Source: Acidobacteriota bacterium (GTDB taxonomy: Bacteria > Acidobacteriota > Terriglobia > UBA7540). Taken from it: a DNA stretch of 64,000 nt. The stretch is from the NCBI GenBank assembly GCA_004298155.1, contig SCRD01000008.1:62001-126000 (forward strand), read 5' to 3'. This document shows, piece after piece, positions 2,584 through 22,185 of this stretch. Below the pieces are notes generated by a model. That model had not been told where the DNA came from. It saw nothing but the letters and a program-made list of their open reading frames with translations, and made no database searches. Position 1 is the first letter of the stretch. Each line of letters begins with the position of its first letter. Position numbers and translations under genes: made by a program.

Positions 2584-3054
2584 ATGAATCATTCGACCTC
2601 GGGGATCACAGCAGCGGAAGCAGCGCGGCAGATAAGGCCGTCAGGCGCGCGGGAAACAGTCTCGGCTTATCTGACCCTGTTTACGTCGCTGGCCACGTTG
2701 TTTTGCTGCGTTCTTCCGGCGCTCCTGGTGCTGCTTGGTCTCAGCTTGACCAGCGTCCTGGCATTTTTCACGAGTATCCCTGGATGGCAGCATTTCGGCC
2801 AATACGATATCTGGCTCTTCCCGCTTTGCGGCGTCCTGCTCGCTTTGGGGTTTTACTTCGCTTACTTCCGCCAGAACCGGCTCGAAGGCGAAGTCTGCGA
2901 AATCCCGGCTGGCGGACGCGAAAGCCCCTGCTCGACCGCCACGCGCTGGAACCGACGAATCCTATGGTTCTCCCTGGCCCTTTATAGCCTGGCGTTGCTG
3001 ATGAACTTTTGGGGAATCGGATGGATGAAAGTTCATGGCTACTTCAACCATTGA
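2584..3054 (+). CDS. MerT-like mercuric/metal ion inner-membrane transporter
   Basis: 156 residues with three to four hydrophobic segments (about 28-55, 72-95, 122-150). The first helix carries the vicinal pair in LFCCVLPALLVLLGL, the hallmark of MerT transporters that take Hg(II) from periplasmic MerP and pass it inward. A second Cys pair lies in the cytoplasmic loop (EVCE...SPCST), as in classic MerT. A ribosome site (GAGGAGAAGG) precedes the ATG. The next gene at 3097 encodes a related small membrane protein with C-U at the pair position. A paralogue lies at 17265-17717. Confidence 0.85.
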   Translation: MNHSTSGITAAEAARQIRPSGARETVSAYLTLFTSLATLFCCVLPALLVLLGLSLTSVLAFFTSIPGWQHFGQYDIWLFPLCGVLLALGFYFAYFRQNRLEGEVCEIPAGGRESPCSTATRWNRRILWFSLALYSLALLMNFWGIGWMKVHGYFNH

Positions 3055-3096: not shown

Positions 3097-3387
3097 ATGC
3101 AAATCCGAAAGATGGGCTTTGGCCCAATTCTCTTATCACTCCCGTGGTGTTGAATCCTGCCGGCGGCCCTGTCCACGCTTTCTCTGCGCGGGGCAGCGAC
3201 GGCCCGGTGGGTCGCGGGCTGGCTGATGCCGGTCCTATTTGTCACTTCCGTAGGATTGCTGGTATACGCGCATTATCGCGCCTGGTGGCGCCATGCGGGG
3301 CCTCTTAAAACGCAAATGATCCTTCTGATCAACACGGGACTGGTGGCTTGGTTATGGTACGGAAGGCTTGGAACCTTGTGGCGCTGA
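3097..3387 (+). CDS. Small MerT-like membrane selenoprotein with vicinal Cys-Sec pair
   Basis: Reading the TGA at 3151-3153 as Sec gives a 96-residue protein starting at ATG 3097 behind a strong GGAGGAGGTG (3078-3087). Residue 19 is Sec within LSLPWCUILPAAL, aligning with the FCCVLPAL pair of the MerT gene just upstream. A second hydrophobic helix (WLMPVLFVTSVGLLVYAHY) and a third near the C-terminus (LLINTGLVAWLW) are visible, so it is an integral membrane protein with its selenol in helix 1. Without readthrough only an 18-residue peptide would be made, and the reading frame after the TGA retains membrane-protein character. No convincing SECIS hairpin was found by eye, so Sec rests on motif, context and the strong start. 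Confidence 0.72.
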
Positions 3388-4153
3388 AGCCCATTGAAAT
3401 CGCAGCAAGCGGCTTGCAAAGGTTTACAGTAATTCGGGGACTGCTTATCGCGCCGATGCTGCTGGGGCTGGCCGCGCTCGCGCCGCTTCCCTTGCGCGCC
3501 CAGGCGGTTATCGCGCCCGGCGGGCGCACGCTTTTCAACCGCAGTAGCCTGGTTCGCTCGTTCGTCGAGCGGGTACATCTCTCAGTGCAAGCGCCCGACG
3601 GGAAGTTCGTGGACGTCACAGAATATGTCACGCCGCTGGCCTTTTTGGCCTTCAGGCCCCCTCGGGATCAAAGCGTTTCTCGACGGGCGCCTTTGCATAC
3701 ACCGGGGGCGTAATTTTTCAGAAAATGTCGAGGCTGAGGTATTCGTTGACGGCAGATTTCCAATACACAATTGCCAGTGAGACCGAAGCTGGACTTTCGC
3801 AGGGCAACACGGCCCAGTATGATGTGGCACCTGCATATTTCATGATCCCGCGCGAGGGAACGCCAGCGAGAGCGGGCTGGTGGCGAAAAACATTCGACCG
3901 GGTATTTCGGAACGGGGCTTTTGCTCTTGTAGAACTCAACGGCACATCGCAGAGTCGTGCGTTTGCGCATGGGGCGGGGAGCGTTTCGAACAGCGGCGGC
4001 ACGACGCTTTATGTTTCGCCGGGCATTCAATATTTTGTGAGCCGATCGTTTCTCGCCGAATTTTCGGCCCCGATTCTACTGGTGAGGGATTTGAATGGAA
4101 TCCAGCCTCGGCTAGATTCCAGGTTTGTGCTCGGTTTTCGGTGGTTGTTTTAA
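3354..4153 (+). pseudogene. Decayed outer-membrane beta-barrel protein (copy 1)
   Basis: Matches the protein at 21004 from its start (ATG GTA CNG AAG) through the signal peptide and IIAPGGRTLFNR region to EYVTPLAF (about 3640). About 90 residues present in the other copy are then missing and the frame shifts: the continuation GAFAYTGGVIFQKMSRLRYSLTADFQ is read in the frame that ends at 4153. The C-terminus (FVLGFRWLF) looks like a genuine barrel end with a terminal Phe, which the other copy lacks. The family resembles predicted transporters of the phenol meta-pathway type (PF13557-like beta barrels). Deletion plus frameshift mean no intact product. Confidence 0.75.
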
Positions 4154-4177
4154 CGCACCCACTTGGAGGTACTTGAA

Positions 4178-4699
4178 ATGCGAATGGCAAATCCAAAAAA
4201 TGTGATTGTGATTTCGCTTGCCTTGCTTCGCCTGCTGGTCGCGGCGCCAACTTCAGCGCAAGTAGTGAAGGCTACCGTCAGAATCAACGGCATGATATGA
4301 GGGCTTTGAGCGAAAGGGGACCAAAAGGCCCTTGAGCGTCTGGATGGCGTTCGTCATGCTGATGTCAATTTGGTGAAAGGTCAGGCGACAGTTTTCCCAA
4401 AGCCAGTAAAATCCTTTGATCCTGCTCTGATTCCCAAAGCGATCCACGATATGGGATTTACAGCGACGGAAGTGGAGATCGTCGCGGACGAAACACTTGC
4501 TTCGCGAGATGGTGAGTTGCAATTGGATGTGCCAGGTTTGAAGCACCCTTTTGTCTTGGCCGGAGGAGCGCGGGCGAAGTCACTCCAGGGAGATAAGAAC
4601 TTGATTGGAAGGCGGATTCGGGTAACAGGGAAGCTTCAAATGGGTCGCGGGAATCTTCCGCCGGCGCTGACCGTCGAGAATTTCCAGCGGTCCACCTGA
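4178..4699 (+). CDS. MerP-like HMA selenoprotein with Sec-x-x-Sec metal site
   Basis: A GGAGG (4165-4169) precedes ATG 4178, followed by a signal peptide ending near TSAQ. The HMA domain then reads NGMIUGLUAKGDQKAL, with TGA at 4298-4300 and 4307-4309 exactly at both Cys positions of the canonical GMxCxxC. The frame stays open to TGA 4697 (173 residues). The rest of the HMA fold is conserved (LERLDGVRHADVNL, DPALIPKAIHDMGF), followed by an OB-like region (VTGKLQMGRG). The paralogue at 18786 has U-S-I-C at the same place. A hairpin at 4314-4333 (AAGGG-GA bulge-CC, loop AAAA, GG-CCCTT) has its loop 25 nt after the first TGA. Predicted role: periplasmic capture of a soft metal such as Hg(II) for MerT. 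Two stops exactly on both ligand codons make random decay unlikely. Confidence 0.8.
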
Positions 4700-17138: not shown

Positions 17139-17212
17139 GCCCTTTTATTGAATGGCGAGGCAATAAGCGCCTGTTGGTGAAATTCGGAAAGGGAAAAGAA
17201 CGAAAAAACTGC

Positions 17213-17244
17213 TTGACTCTATACACGTGTACGGCCTCTAGCCT
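17213..17244 (+). promoter_or_regulatory. MerR-type promoter for merT copy 2
   Basis: TTGACT (17213-17218), then CTATACACGTGTACGGCCT containing the dyad ACACGTGT, then a weak -10-like CTAGCC. Ends about 20 bp before the merT start. Same core as the other four sites. Confidence 0.75.
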
Positions 17245-17264
17245 CAAATCGAAAGGGGTGAGTG

Positions 17265-17717
17265 ATGCTGGAGGCCATCGAGAAAACACAAACCAGGAGC
17301 CAGCGGCGTCCTGGGCGCTGGGTGCCGCTTTTCAGTTATCTTTCTCTATTCGGCTCATTTGGGACTTTGTTGTGTTGCGCCCTGCCCTCGCTGTTGGTTC
17401 TGCTCGGCCTGGGGGCGACGATGGCTTCTTTCCTGTCCGCATTGCCATTCCTCGAGACAATGTCCCGGTACAAACCGTGGACCTTTAGCATCTCAGGTGT
17501 CCTGATCGCTGCCGACTGGATTTATCTTTACTGGCTTGCGCCGAGACTTCGCGCCCGGAGCGGCACGGGGGAGGTTTGCCCCGTGGACGGCCCAAGCGCG
17601 TGCTCGACCGCCGACCGAGTCAGCCGCGTGACGCTCTGGGTGGCGACGGGAATCTACGCGGTCGGATTCTTCACTGCCTTCATTCTGGGGCCGCTGCTAT
17701 GGAAATTTGGGTCATAA
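17265..17717 (+). CDS. MerT-like metal ion inner-membrane transporter (copy 2)
   Basis: About 150 residues with helices near 24-55, 65-85 and 120-145. The first helix carries LLCCALPSLLVLLGLG, the paired Cys motif of MerT. The cytoplasmic loop has EVCPVDGPSACST, matching EVCE...SPCST of copy 1 at 2584. GTG at 17262 is an alternative start; AAAGGGGTG precedes the ATG at 17265. It has its own MerR-type promoter and is followed by a second such promoter driving the barrel and UxxC MerP-like genes. Confidence 0.85.
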   Translation: MLEAIEKTQTRSQRRPGRWVPLFSYLSLFGSFGTLLCCALPSLLVLLGLGATMASFLSALPFLETMSRYKPWTFSISGVLIAADWIYLYWLAPRLRARSGTGEVCPVDGPSACSTADRVSRVTLWVATGIYAVGFFTAFILGPLLWKFGS

Positions 17718-17784
17718 GAGAGAGGCCGCTTGAGGACGACGGAAGGAGAAAGCGAGTCTGCGCCGGGAGAGCCAATCCTTCCGC

Positions 17785-17816
17785 TTGACTCTATACCTAA
17801 CAACAGGGTTTAGCCT
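17785..17816 (+). promoter_or_regulatory. MerR-type promoter for the barrel/MerP-like operon
   Basis: TTGACT (17785-17790), CTATACCTAACAACAGGG, then TTTAGCCT as a possible -10. Same core as the four other MerR-type sites. It shows that the open frame extending to 17785 is not the real start of the next gene. Confidence 0.72.
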
Positions 17817-17859
17817 ATGCATGTGGAGTTGCGCGAGCGTTGAGGCTGAAGACATAGAG

Positions 17860-18786
17860 ATGGTGATGACCCGTACTAACCCAACTCGTCCTACCCCTTC
17901 CTGGACCAACATTCTGCGGCGCGCCGCCTTGCTGGCGCTGGCTCCCTGCTTGATGATGGTCCTCATTTCGAGTGGCGCGTACGCTTCCGGTCACGGGCCG
18001 CTTTTTGGCCTGAGCGAGCCCGTGCTCGGGAAAGGGGCGGTAGAGCTAGATGAATTCTTTGGTGCCCGCGGAGGCTCACCGTTTGACGGCACAATGTTCA
18101 CGAGCATGCTTTCCTACGGCGTTACTGGCAATCTCCAGCTCTCTGTCACCGCCCCATACTTGATCCACCAGCCTGTATTGCCGACCTTTCGCTTGAACGC
18201 CATGATGCCAGGGAACAACGAAGCAGAGGGCATCCTGGCTTGGCGCTTCCAAAGGAAGGAGTGGAGCGTTGGAAAACGCTATGGGAGCACGGCCTACTTT
18301 GGGCTTGATCTTCCAACCGGATCGAACGCCCTGGGCATTCGAGGCGGGCCGGGCTTTTACGAGGCCGTCGCAACCGGTTATGCATCCCGGAGTTGGTATT
18401 TGTGGGGCGGAATTGGAGACAATCAGTTCACGTCACGCCTGGGAGATCAGCGAGTGAATGATCTCTTTTACAGCGGCGTCTGGGGTTACCGGCCCAAGTT
18501 CCTGCGGGGTAAATGGACCAAGCCCGACGGGCGGTTGTTCATTGAGATGATTGGCGACCATTTGGGTTCTGCCGAGCGCGCGGGGGTGAATCTGCCTCAA
18601 ACCCGTGGCGATCAAATTATGCTCGGCCCAACCACATTGTGGCTGTTTAGGAATTTCGGCATTGAGGGCGGTATTGTCTGGCCCATCTATCAGAATTTTC
18701 AGCCCGGCGTGCCACGCGAACACTACCGAATCGCCGCGGACGTTACCTATTTCTTTCCATTAAAGAGTCTGTTTGGGAGGATGTGA
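17860..18786 (+). CDS. Predicted outer-membrane beta-barrel protein
   Basis: 308 residues. ATG 17860 (or 17866) is chosen because the upstream part of the frame overlaps the promoter. A signal peptide (AALLALAPCLMMVLISSGAYA) is followed by alternating amphipathic strands (GTMFTSMLSYGVTGNLQLSVTAPYLI, EGILAWRF, YGSTAYFGLDLPTG, ATGYASRSWYLWGGIGD). This looks like the transporter-like barrels annotated near PF13557, but the exact family is uncertain. The stop overlaps the next ATG (TGATG), so it is translationally coupled to the Sec-containing MerP-like protein and may form an outer-membrane pore for the metal. Confidence 0.72.
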   Translation: MVMTRTNPTRPTPSWTNILRRAALLALAPCLMMVLISSGAYASGHGPLFGLSEPVLGKGAVELDEFFGARGGSPFDGTMFTSMLSYGVTGNLQLSVTAPYLIHQPVLPTFRLNAMMPGNNEAEGILAWRFQRKEWSVGKRYGSTAYFGLDLPTGSNALGIRGGPGFYEAVATGYASRSWYLWGGIGDNQFTSRLGDQRVNDLFYSGVWGYRPKFLRGKWTKPDGRLFIEMIGDHLGSAERAGVNLPQTRGDQIMLGPTTLWLFRNFGIEGGIVWPIYQNFQPGVPREHYRIAADVTYFFPLKSLFGRM

Positions 18787-19346
18787 TGATCAAACTGGCA
18801 ATCAGGAATGCATGGACCGTGCTAGCCGTCTTTCTGGCGATGCTTGCCATTTCGAGCCCTTCGATGGCCCAGGTATTTCGCGCGCAGGTGCGGATTCAAG
18901 GGATGGATTGAAGCATCTGCGCGTATGGGGCTCAAAAGTCCCTCCAGGGCCTGGAAGGCGCTGGCAAAGCACACGTCTTTCTCAACAAGGGGCTCGGCGT
19001 CGTCTACTCGAAGAGCGGCGCAAGCTTCGATCCGGAGCAAATTCCGGCGGCAATCAATAACACCGGCTTTTCAGTGCCCGCGGTTCAAGTGACGGTAGCT
19101 GGAACAATCGAGAAGTCGGGAAACAATTTGCTGCTCAAAGTTCCTGGACTCAGATACTCGTTCACGCTCAAGGGTGGCAACGCGTATCAGTCTTTGGAGC
19201 AGGAGCCGTCGCTAGTCGGAAAGACTGTCACGATCTCTGGCAGCTTGGCGAATCCTTCGCCGCACCCGAAGCCGCCCTTTGAGCTGTCGGTTGATTCTTT
19301 TGAGCGCGGCGCAAAGCCGCCCACGCCGGGCGGTGCGAAAACTTAG
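18786..19346 (+). CDS. MerP-like HMA selenoprotein with Sec-x-x-Cys metal site
   Basis: 186 residues when TGA 18909-18911 is read as Sec. Signal peptide ends near SMAQ; the HMA motif is QGMDUSICAYGAQKSL, i.e. GMxCxxC with the first Cys replaced by Sec at residue 42. After the HMA domain come DPEQIPAAINNTGF and an OB-like segment (VPGLRYSFTLKGG, LVGKTVTISGSL), shared with the UxxU protein at 4178. A hairpin GGGGCT-CAAA-AGTCCC (18927-18942) has its loop 24 nt after the TGA. Start overlaps the barrel stop, a strong sign that this is an active, coupled gene and not a decayed one. Predicted periplasmic soft-metal binder. Confidence 0.85.
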
Positions 19347-19446
19347 ATTGCCACCAGTGCATTGATGTTCCGAGCGCGCAATCGTCGGATAGCGGTTACA
19401 AATTCCCTCGGAATCGTGGCGTAAAGAAACATAGGGGGCATCGTCC

Positions 19447-19866
19447 ATGTTCAAGTCTGCGATTCTCGAAGTCGTCGGAGACCTGCAACTCCACTGTTCG
19501 GGCTGCGAGCAGCGCGTCGAGCGGCTGCTCAAGCGCGTGCACGGCGTAGCGCAGGTTCATGCGCAGGCAAAAAATCAACGCATTGAGGTAATGTTTGATT
19601 CGGGGGTGGCGGAACCCGCTGCCATCCAAAAGCGACTACGCGAGGCTGGTTACGAAACCCGGGAGGCAACTTCGCAGCAGCCAGCCACGACAGAATCAAT
19701 CTCCGAGGCTGATAGCGGTGAAGGGACGCCGATACGCAATGCCCCCTTAAGAGGCAAGAATCACCTTCGTCCCCTCGCCGCGATCTCCACCATTACGCTT
19801 CTGCTCCTGGGAGTGGCAGGCTACCTGCTGTACTTGCATGCGGGGTCCATTCTCGAGAGAGGCTAG
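19447..19866 (+). CDS. HMA domain protein with C-terminal membrane anchor
   Basis: 139 residues. The N-terminal HMA domain has LHCSGCEQRVERLL (Cys 17 and 20) and LREAGYET; a polar linker of about 35 residues leads to one membrane helix (LAAISTITLLLLGVAGYLLYL). It is the intact paralogue of the HMA half of the gene at 238 but with a single helix in place of the MerC-like domain. It is followed 4 bp later by the CcdA-cupredoxin gene, so the pair may pass metal or electrons between cytoplasm and membrane. Confidence 0.78.
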   Translation: MFKSAILEVVGDLQLHCSGCEQRVERLLKRVHGVAQVHAQAKNQRIEVMFDSGVAEPAAIQKRLREAGYETREATSQQPATTESISEADSGEGTPIRNAPLRGKNHLRPLAAISTITLLLLGVAGYLLYLHAGSILERG

Positions 19867-19869
19867 GCA

Positions 19870-20913
19870 TTGCCTCCGCTGCTCTTCCTGGCATTGGCGC
19901 TAATCGGCGGAGCCGCTTCTTTCTTCTCGCCTTGCAGTATCGCCATCACGCCGGCGTTTCTGGCCTATCTCGCCACCGGGACGCTGCCCGAAAAAGAAAC
20001 ACGCGTCCTCTCGCGCCCACTCATCTGGGCGGCACTCCTCGTCGCCTCGGGCATTGTCGTTTTCTATGCGGTAGCGGGCAGCATCGTCGGGCTCGTCGGC
20101 AGCATTGCTTACAATTACCTGATTTATTTCATTCCTGTCGTCGGTTTAGCATTCCTTCTGCTTGGGGCACTGATATTGTTGGGACGCGTCGGCGGGTTGG
20201 GATTCGTGGAACGTTGGAACCCGATGAATCGCCTTTATGCGCGCCAGGAAGTCGCCGAACCTGCCGTGGGCACGCGCCGTAAAAGCACGTTCGTAGCGTT
20301 CGGGTTTGCCTATGCTGCCGCGTCGCATACGTGTTCGCTGCCGATCTTTCTCGGCATTCTTCTGGTCCCTCTTGTGGTCGGTAATTACCCGCTCGCCGCA
20401 CTCTCGGTCTTTGCCTACGGCTTCGCCATTGCCCTTCTGGTGGTAACAATGATGGCGCTCGGCCATCGGGTATCTGCCGGCCTGCGGAGTTTAGGGCCTT
20501 GGCTGATGCGCACGACGGCTGTGCTATTCATCGGCACCGGCGCGTTCTTGTTCGTTTACTTTGGCCAGAATTACGGCGCCTATTTCAACAAGGGTTCGAC
20601 GAAGGCAGCGGTGACCGTGGCTGTTGATCACCGATATCAGTTAATCGAAGGCGCCGATGCGACGGGTTATCCCTACGCGCCGCGCGTCCTCGACATACCT
20701 GCCGGCAAGGTGGTTCAGGTGGCAGTGACTGATCACGTTGGAGGCTGTCTGTTGCGCACTGTGTTTGAGGGGCTTGGCACCGACGGGCGCACGGTCAAAA
20801 TCGTGGTGCCGGTCGGAGAAACTCGCGTGGTTTCGCTTTATGCGCCACGCCCCGGACGTTACGCATTCCATTGCGGTGAGAATATGTTTTCCGGCACGGT
20901 TGTGGCTCAGTGA
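19870..20913 (+). CDS. CcdA/DsbD-like membrane domain fused to a cupredoxin-like domain
   Basis: 347 residues from TTG 19870 (GAGAGG upstream). Residues about 1-235 hold six or more helices with the paired motifs SFFSPCSIAITPAFLAY and AYAAASHTCSLPIFLGIL, the two membrane Cys of CcdA/DsbD electron carriers. The C-terminal 110 residues form a cupredoxin-like beta sandwich with VGGCLLRT and YAFHCGENMFSG, giving Cys, His, Cys and Met as possible ligands. This fusion would place a metal site in the periplasm beside a transmembrane thiol relay. Context suggests it reduces thiol or selenol groups of the MerP-like proteins, which is inference. Confidence 0.75.
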   Translation: MPPLLFLALALIGGAASFFSPCSIAITPAFLAYLATGTLPEKETRVLSRPLIWAALLVASGIVVFYAVAGSIVGLVGSIAYNYLIYFIPVVGLAFLLLGALILLGRVGGLGFVERWNPMNRLYARQEVAEPAVGTRRKSTFVAFGFAYAAASHTCSLPIFLGILLVPLVVGNYPLAALSVFAYGFAIALLVVTMMALGHRVSAGLRSLGPWLMRTTAVLFIGTGAFLFVYFGQNYGAYFNKGSTKAAVTVAVDHRYQLIEGADATGYPYAPRVLDIPAGKVVQVAVTDHVGGCLLRTVFEGLGTDGRTVKIVVPVGETRVVSLYAPRPGRYAFHCGENMFSGTVVAQ

Positions 20914-21003
20914 GACGCCCGTAAAGAAGCTGGAATGTAAAGCAACTTGTGGAAGTTCAGGATCGGGGCTCTCGACCTTTACCCAGGGACCCGTAATTTG
21001 ACT

Positions 21004-22185
21004 ATGGTACCGAAGTTAAGGAACTTGCTGCCGTTGAACATGATTAGATTCGCGCATAGGAATTCTCCTCCCACTCGAAAAGTCGTGAGGTTATGCCTCC
21101 TCTCGACCATCGCAGCTTTGGCCGTTTTTACCCCGCCTTCATTGCGCGCGCAGGCGATTATCGCGCCCGGCGGCCGCACGCTCTTCAATCGTGAAAGTCT
21201 GGTCCGCTCGTTTGTCGAGCGGCTGCATCTCTCGATCGAAACCCCCGACGGGAAATTTGTGGACGTGACCCAATACATCACGCCACTGGCCTTTGTTTAC
21301 GCCTTCGCTCCGAAGTGGCAGGTCATTGTCGTCCAGCCGGGAGTCAGCGCGAGTGTCACCGAGGGCGCCGGGACCGAAAGTATGACACAGCACGTGCCTT
21401 ACTGTTTCGCTGATTCCCAGTTCATCTTGCAGTATGACGGCCTTTATAGCCGGAACGCTCCTGGTGGGCTGACGCGTCTCTCGGGAATCTTTGGCCTTGA
21501 GGCGCCCACGGGCGCCGTGCGCTTCTCAACCGGGGCTTTTGGCTACACCGGAGGGTTGGTGTTTGAAAAAGTATCAAGGCTCCGATACGCTTTCACGGCC
21601 GACTTCCAATATACAATTGCCACGGAAAACGAAGCGGGATTGTCGCAAGGCAACACGGCCCAGTACGACGTAGCTCCAGCCTACTTCATCATCCCGCGGG
21701 AGCAGACGCCCGCGGATGCGAGCGGATTTCGGCGGACTTTCGACCGCGTCTTTCACAACGGCGCCTTTGCCATTGTTGAACTCAACGGCACATCGCAAGC
21801 TCAGGCGTTTGCGCGCGGGACGGGCGCGAATCCAAACAGCGGCGGCACGGCACTTTATGTTTCGCCGGGCATCCAATATTTCGTCAGCCGCAGGTTTATT
21901 GCGGAGTTTTCAGTGCCCATTTTCGGCCAGAACTGGGAACGCCCATTCCGCTGGAGAAATCCCCTCCGATTCGCTGATGGTTTCTCCGGGTTTCTTCAAA
22001 ACCTTTGGGATAACGGCGCGGATAGACTTGCTCAACGTGATGTTTTCCTAGTCCCATCTGAACGGTCTGCGTCACTGCTTTTTCCGGCAAGTGCAGCGCT
22101 GTTTCCACCACGGGTAACAGGGCCCGGCCCTCAGCATCTTAGCACTGGTTACAAGGTCGCGTGGCGCCGACCTCGTGGCGGGTAG
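21004..22185 (+). CDS. Outer-membrane beta-barrel protein (copy 2, C-terminus replaced)
   Basis: 393 residues from ATG 21004, the start conserved with copy 1 at 3354. Signal peptide ends near LRAQ. Conserved barrel sequence (IIAPGGRTLFNRESLVRSFVERLHLSI through LYVSPGIQYFVSRRFIAEFSVPI) matches copy 1 until about 21920; the last 85 residues are unrelated to the copy 1 barrel end and are unlike a barrel terminus, suggesting that a deletion or recombination replaced the true C-terminus. The frame ends inside the convergent glycosyltransferase gene. The family resembles PF13557-type predicted transporters. It may no longer insert correctly. Confidence 0.6.
   Translation: MVPKLRNLLPLNMIRFAHRNSPPTRKVVRLCLLSTIAALAVFTPPSLRAQAIIAPGGRTLFNRESLVRSFVERLHLSIETPDGKFVDVTQYITPLAFVYAFAPKWQVIVVQPGVSASVTEGAGTESMTQHVPYCFADSQFILQYDGLYSRNAPGGLTRLSGIFGLEAPTGAVRFSTGAFGYTGGLVFEKVSRLRYAFTADFQYTIATENEAGLSQGNTAQYDVAPAYFIIPREQTPADASGFRRTFDRVFHNGAFAIVELNGTSQAQAFARGTGANPNSGGTALYVSPGIQYFVSRRFIAEFSVPIFGQNWERPFRWRNPLRFADGFSGFLQNLWDNGADRLAQRDVFLVPSERSASLLFPASAALFPPRVTGPGPQHLSTGYKVAWRRPRGG

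Follow-up and report, generated by a model that had tools for sequence, protein, structure and literature searches.

Bacterial genes with two closely spaced selenocysteine (Sec) codons have already been catalogued. The NCBIfam model NF041115 (UxxU_metal_bind; 74 positions) describes a metal-binding (seleno)protein, and the table of a 2026 review (PMC13188914) lists it as "Metal-binding protein ... NF041115 UxxU 2" and as "putative mercuric reductase, UxxU, 2 Sec". UxxU selenoproteins of the Prx-like and FmdB-like types are also on record (PMC13188914, PMC2398784). Sec was likewise annotated earlier in mer-type transport proteins, both in the MerT/CopZ fusion-like heavy metal transport selenoprotein (NF045683, MerT_CopZ_Se) and in a MerT selenoprotein (PF02411, C/SxxU). 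We found no description of a decoding mechanism for two close Sec codons in bacterial genes.

Here we analyze a gene at positions 4178..4699 (+ strand) of a 64,000-nt stretch of DNA from an Acidobacteriota bacterium (hereafter, the window), predicted to encode a selenoprotein with a signal sequence, an HMA domain carrying UxxU, and a C-terminal OB-like domain. As in NF041115, both Cys of an HMA-type domain are replaced by Sec as UxxU. Unlike NF041115 proteins, the window protein scores 48.2 bits against this model, below its cut-off of 95, and its family adds a signal sequence and the conserved C-terminal OB-like domain. None of the 396 genomes in our sample of the phylum reaches the NF041115 cut-off, and no member among 11 aligned family members beats the window protein against this model by E-value. 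The original prediction had presented UxxU as an undescribed metal site; the NF041115 entry and the review table show that it is already known, and by sequence score the HMA-OB family lies outside NF041115.

The window protein shares an exported HMA domain, the position of the GMxCxxC motif and mer-type neighbors with MerP (TIGR02052), and matches the MerP structures 1osd and 1afi. It differs from MerP in its score (31.5 bits; cut-off 92.55), in having Sec in place of Cys, and in its extra OB-like domain. The label "MerP-like" holds for the fold and the place in the cassette, and fails for membership by the NCBI model. Compared to NF045683, against which the protein scores 30.6 bits (cut-off 375), the HMA and membrane parts in the window are separate genes. 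The Prx-like and FmdB-like genes also carry two UGAs three codons apart in a single gene, but have other folds and presumed redox or regulatory roles. What appears to be new is the HMA-OB architecture, a pair of tandem hairpins tied to UxxU, and a companion PWCU/PWUU membrane protein.

The HMA-OB family

The open reading frame at 4178-4699 is intact and encodes a 173-aa product that is predicted to be secreted. A GGAGG ribosome-binding site (4165..4169, +) lies 8 nt before its ATG, and the gene ends in a terminal TGA stop (4697-4699, +). Two further TGAs are in frame: the first (4298..4300, +) corresponds to residue 41 and the second (4307..4309, +) to residue 44, and in our alignment these fall on the first and second invariant Cys columns of the HMA motif GMxCxxC. 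The translation reads MRMANPKNVIVISLALLRLLVAAPTSAQVVKATVRINGMI-U-GL-U-AKGDQKALERLDGV..., with the UxxU site in the context GMI-U-GL-U-AKG. The two codons are three codons apart with two residues between them, not six codons apart as first reported. The protein matches the Pfam HMA domain (PF00403) with 39.4 bits, above the gathering cut-off of 24.8, and has a predicted N-terminal signal-like helix. Alignment columns, Pfam match, ribosome-binding site and signal-like helix all bear out the earlier claim that the TGAs at 4298 and 4307 replace both Cys of the HMA motif in a protein with a signal peptide and a ribosome site.

An AlphaFold model of the protein (mean pLDDT 85.5) shows a ferredoxin-like HMA domain between the signal-like helix and a beta domain at the C-terminus. 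The HMA domain matches CopZ, copper-ATPase domains and MerP in fold, with Z scores of about 11-12.7. The C-terminal domain (4466..4696, +) is conserved throughout the HMA-OB family and has no Pfam match; modeled alone, it reaches a pLDDT of 91 and resembles OB-folds with weak E-values. A fold search with this domain listed no match at E under 0.001, and we term it OB-like because the weaker fold matches are consistent with one another. An Rfam scan of the window gave no RNA family at gathering scores.

A frame containing TGA-NNN-NNN-TGA is expected about once per window by chance under a third-order Markov model, so the case for Sec rests on conservation. When 396 genomes sampled throughout the window's phylum were searched at the protein level, nine contained relatives, and the best match carried exactly two TGAs in eight of these and CxxC in one. 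Alignment and RNA-model searches added further relatives, bringing the total in this phylum to 15 UxxU loci from 14 genomes, spread over 11 families; three UxxC loci and 14 CxxC relatives served as controls. The original prediction had proposed a search for UxxU, UxxC and CxxC relatives aligned at the same columns, and all three were found: every TGA of the full-length members sits on one of the two invariant Cys columns, placing in-frame UGA where homologs have Cys. No CxxU form was present among the family members collected. A scan of genome contigs with a single protein as query gave no match, a contig scan based on the alignment, in which Cys was read as TGY, could find only CxxC relatives, and a viral scan found no relatives. 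Together, the HMA match and the retention of both TGAs at 15 loci in 14 genomes, including a paralog at large synonymous distance, lift the double TGA above chance, and we rejected the chance reading because both codons are conserved across loci.

The same genome carries a second UxxU copy on another contig (C24), and the window itself contains a UxxC paralog (18783..19346, +) in which only the first Cys column has a TGA. Between the window and C24 UxxU copies, dN is 0.23 and dS 1.13 overall (dN/dS about 0.2), and in the HMA part dN is 0.06 and dS 0.58. By this comparison of sequences the HMA-OB gene is under purifying selection, and the reduced dS of the HMA part fits an additional constraint at the RNA level.

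The Sec genes on which the original prediction depended are present in the window's genome, where SelA (585 bits), SelB (368 bits) and SelD (377 bits) all score above curated cut-offs, as does tRNA-Sec (68 bits). The selD gene of this genome also contains a TGA in frame, and the loop of an ordinary hairpin, GAGTCCAA-GTATT-TTGGACTC, lies 19 nt downstream of it. From the alignments and the gene content of this genome, we conclude with high confidence that the HMA-OB family is a true double-Sec protein, with Sec predicted to be inserted at each of the two UGAs.

Tandem hairpins and the proposed decoding of two UGA codons

The bacterial SECIS (bSECIS) model specifies a 3-9 nt loop with a G in its first two positions, located 16-37 nt from the UGA; according to a review, some putative bSECIS elements do not fit the published model. 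Downstream of the two UGAs in the window, we identified two abutting hairpins. SL1 (4316..4332, +) has its loop 19-21 nt downstream of the first UGA, and relatives keep its stem with changed sequence; SL2 (4334..4352, +; GAGCGTC-TGGAT-GGCGTTC) has a bSECIS-like GG loop. Two abutting hairpins are found in all 15 UxxU genes. The SL1 loop follows UGA1 by about 20 nt, and in every gene the SL2 loop follows UGA2 by 31 nt and UGA1 by 40 nt. SL2 with an intact GG loop is present in 15/15 UxxU, 1/3 UxxC and 0/14 CxxC genes.

Given just the alignment of 14 UGA-bearing genes, RNAalifold predicts both SL1 and SL2. The paired positions of the two stems are filled by pairing bases in 91.8% of cells in these 14 genes versus 50.5% in CxxC relatives (SL2: 94.9% versus 39.8%), and in 92.3% of cells in the 15 UxxU genes alone; sliding the pairing partner by 1-3 bases brings pairing below 50%. 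We compared the observed pairs to a null in which synonymous codons were shuffled with each protein kept (4000 shuffles). SL1 has 81 pairs against 63.8 +/- 3.0 (best shuffle 74), and SL2 has 99 against 67.9 +/- 4.1 (best shuffle 81); both hairpins therefore exceed what the protein sequence explains. Covariation counts overstate independence because the sequences are related. SL1 is rebuilt from wholly different bases in four loci (L063, L084, L086 and L087), and SL2 retains ACGCC/GGCGT and the GG loop despite a peptide change from RLDG to RQAG. SL1 of the window copy carries a mismatch, and the stretch as a whole has an unremarkable folding energy (z -1.0). The natural series of 15 UxxU, 3 UxxC and 14 CxxC genes isolates the RNA feature that accompanies double Sec, and defines its exact bases. 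Overall, the gene very probably encodes a double-Sec HMA metal-binding protein with a functional double hairpin downstream, and SL1 and SL2 probably direct the ribosome to read through both UGAs.

We next compared these hairpins to the bSECIS model. SL2 of the window fits the model for UGA2, with 8 bp including a G-U pair, the loop TGGAT, a spacing of 31 nt and an energy of -9.8 kcal/mol, just as the selD gene fits it with one hairpin. The locus departs from the model in having two abutting hairpins, in that SL1 usually has no loop G, and in the 40-nt distance of SL2 from UGA1; in the window copy, where SL1 has no early loop G, neither hairpin fits for UGA1. Across the UxxU genes tested, SL2 fits UGA2 in 12/12, and a hairpin fitting UGA1 occurs in only 4/12. 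The original prediction had a single SECIS, its loop 25 nt after the first TGA and 16 nt after the second, serving both codons. Conserved RNA does lie downstream, in the form of two abutting hairpins, and of these only SL2 regularly follows the published bSECIS rules, for UGA2 only, as it lies 40 nt from UGA1. The UxxC genes are mixed for SL2: in L046 a perfect SL2 lies 40 nt from the single UGA, L035 has one G-G mismatch, and L089 retains only a remnant. A rule that SL2 is lost along with the second Sec was rejected as too strong on account of L046.

The simplest reading of this arrangement is one hairpin per UGA. With UGA1 in the A site, SL1 would stand at a normal SECIS distance (about 20 nt); as the ribosome advances 9 nt to UGA2, SL1 would be drawn into it, and with UGA2 in the A site SL2 would stand at an allowed distance (31 nt). 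We prefer this assignment with moderate confidence, and regard SL2 serving both UGAs as a strong rival, because a UGA1-fitting hairpin occurs in only 4/12 genes and the UxxC genes are mixed for SL2. More tentatively, we propose a two-hairpin relay in which SL1 recruits SelB for the first Sec and is melted by the ribosome, after which SL2 brings in SelB for the second. Such a relay would constitute a tandem SECIS in one bacterial gene, building an all-selenium mercury-handling chain from the UxxU HMA protein and a CU/UU membrane protein. SelB would contact both hairpins in such a relay.

The rival account also has a double-Sec protein, the only difference being the hairpin assigned to UGA1: SL2 would be the sole SECIS and bind SelB for both UGAs, at 40 and 31 nt. 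SL1 might assist it, act as a spacer or pause the ribosome, or could arise in part from conservation of the AYGAEKAL peptide. In favor of this account, the G[G/U] loop of the published model is consistently present in SL2 alone, and L046 retains a perfect SL2 at the same 40-nt distance from its sole UGA. Against it, 40 nt falls outside the 16-37 nt range, and SL1 both exceeds the synonymous-codon null and persists with wholly changed sequence in the four loci named above. We consider this account a real but somewhat doubtful possibility.

Proposed metal role and mer-type neighborhood

Under the preferred reading, in which both UGAs are read as Sec, the gene product would have a diselenol (UxxU) site and occupy the place of MerP in a mer-type cassette, with Sec as the predicted metal-ligand pair. 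Across genomes, the recurrent neighbors of HMA-OB genes are a MetA-deg-type outer-membrane barrel, MerT-like proteins, NHL propeller proteins, MerR or CsoR-type regulators, MerC, 2Fe-2S CopZ, and MerA or MerA-like reductases. In the window, a MerT-like membrane protein (2584..3054, +) weakly matches merT_RC607 and is conserved in the paralogous cassette with a dN/dS of about 0.06; no merA was identified in the part of the window examined. The C24 copy has a MerA (506.8 bits, above the cut-off of 454) and a MerR-family regulator nearby, and one further locus (L070) has a CsoR-like regulator, MerT, 2Fe-2S CopZ, MerC and a MerA-like reductase. With its HMA domain and signal-like helix, MerA near the C24 paralog and MerT or MerC elsewhere, the family resembles MerP as an exported HMA protein encoded beside mer genes. 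NHL beta-propeller-type proteins repeatedly adjoin HMA-OB genes (L066, L067, L069, L100 and L101).

Selenolates are expected to hold Hg(II) very tightly. The exported HMA-OB protein could capture Hg(II), or another soft metal like it, on the outer side of the inner membrane and pass it to MerT/MerC-type transporters, after which MerA would reduce it. Judging from the neighboring genes, the cargo is most likely Hg(II) or a soft metal of that kind, an assignment in which we have moderate confidence. A different role, in which the UxxU site is a selenol redox center forming a Sec-Sec diselenide rather than a metal-transfer site, would agree with the occurrence of most known UxxC/UxxU motifs in redox proteins (PMC13188914, PMC2398784). 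The fold is that of an HMA domain and not thioredoxin, and the neighbors are MerT/MerC/MerA/CsoR-type metal genes, making a redox center unlikely.

The gene at 3097..3387 (+) encodes a 96-aa membrane protein with a TGA at position 3151 within a PWCU motif. This TGA is kept in three other loci (L097, L098 and L099), one of them PWUU: it occurs in the C24 paralog and in another genome, where a strong hairpin follows 26 nt further on, and a third genome has TGATGA at the motif, giving two adjacent predicted Sec (PWUU). By its sequence conservation this small membrane protein is probably a second selenoprotein, which suggests that a neighboring membrane protein took the same path to Sec. In the C24 cassette the situation of the window copy is reversed: the PWCU gene (L099) has a frameshift near its C-terminus, and the barrel gene is intact.

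Integrity of the gene and its cassette

We also considered that only UGA1 is decoded as Sec and that UGA2 mostly terminates translation, yielding a selenium-gated switch with little full-length product. The UxxC genes L035, L046 and L089 do have Sec at the first position alone, but SL2 lies at a canonical distance from UGA2 in 15/15 UxxU genes and does not occur in CxxC genes, and the HMA region past UGA2 is under purifying selection; we judge this reading very improbable. The outer-membrane-barrel gene of the cassette (3348..4153, +) is frameshifted and lacks ~190 nt compared to the intact C24 copy (358 aa); another barrel copy lies at 20947-22185 of the window. Because this adjacent gene is broken, the window copy's cassette may be partly decayed. 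Such nearby decay or assembly error could point to a pseudogene or sequencing error at the UxxU gene as well, yet the frame at 4178-4699 has no other stop or frameshift and both TGAs recur in 14 genomes and in a diverged paralog (dN/dS 0.21), so that we reject a pseudogene reading of the family and hardly credit one here.

A third mer-like cassette spans 17148-22185 and contains MerT-like, outer-membrane-type, UxxC HMA-OB, and HMA plus CcdA-like proteins along with the second barrel. Elsewhere in the window, an HMA-MerC fusion (238-948, +) has TGA as its fourth codon (247-249; MLKUITLEV...) and an intact HMA Cys pair, with no ATG, GTG or TTG start between this TGA and the HMA core. The TGA at 247-249 may represent Sec, a mutation, or a non-standard start.
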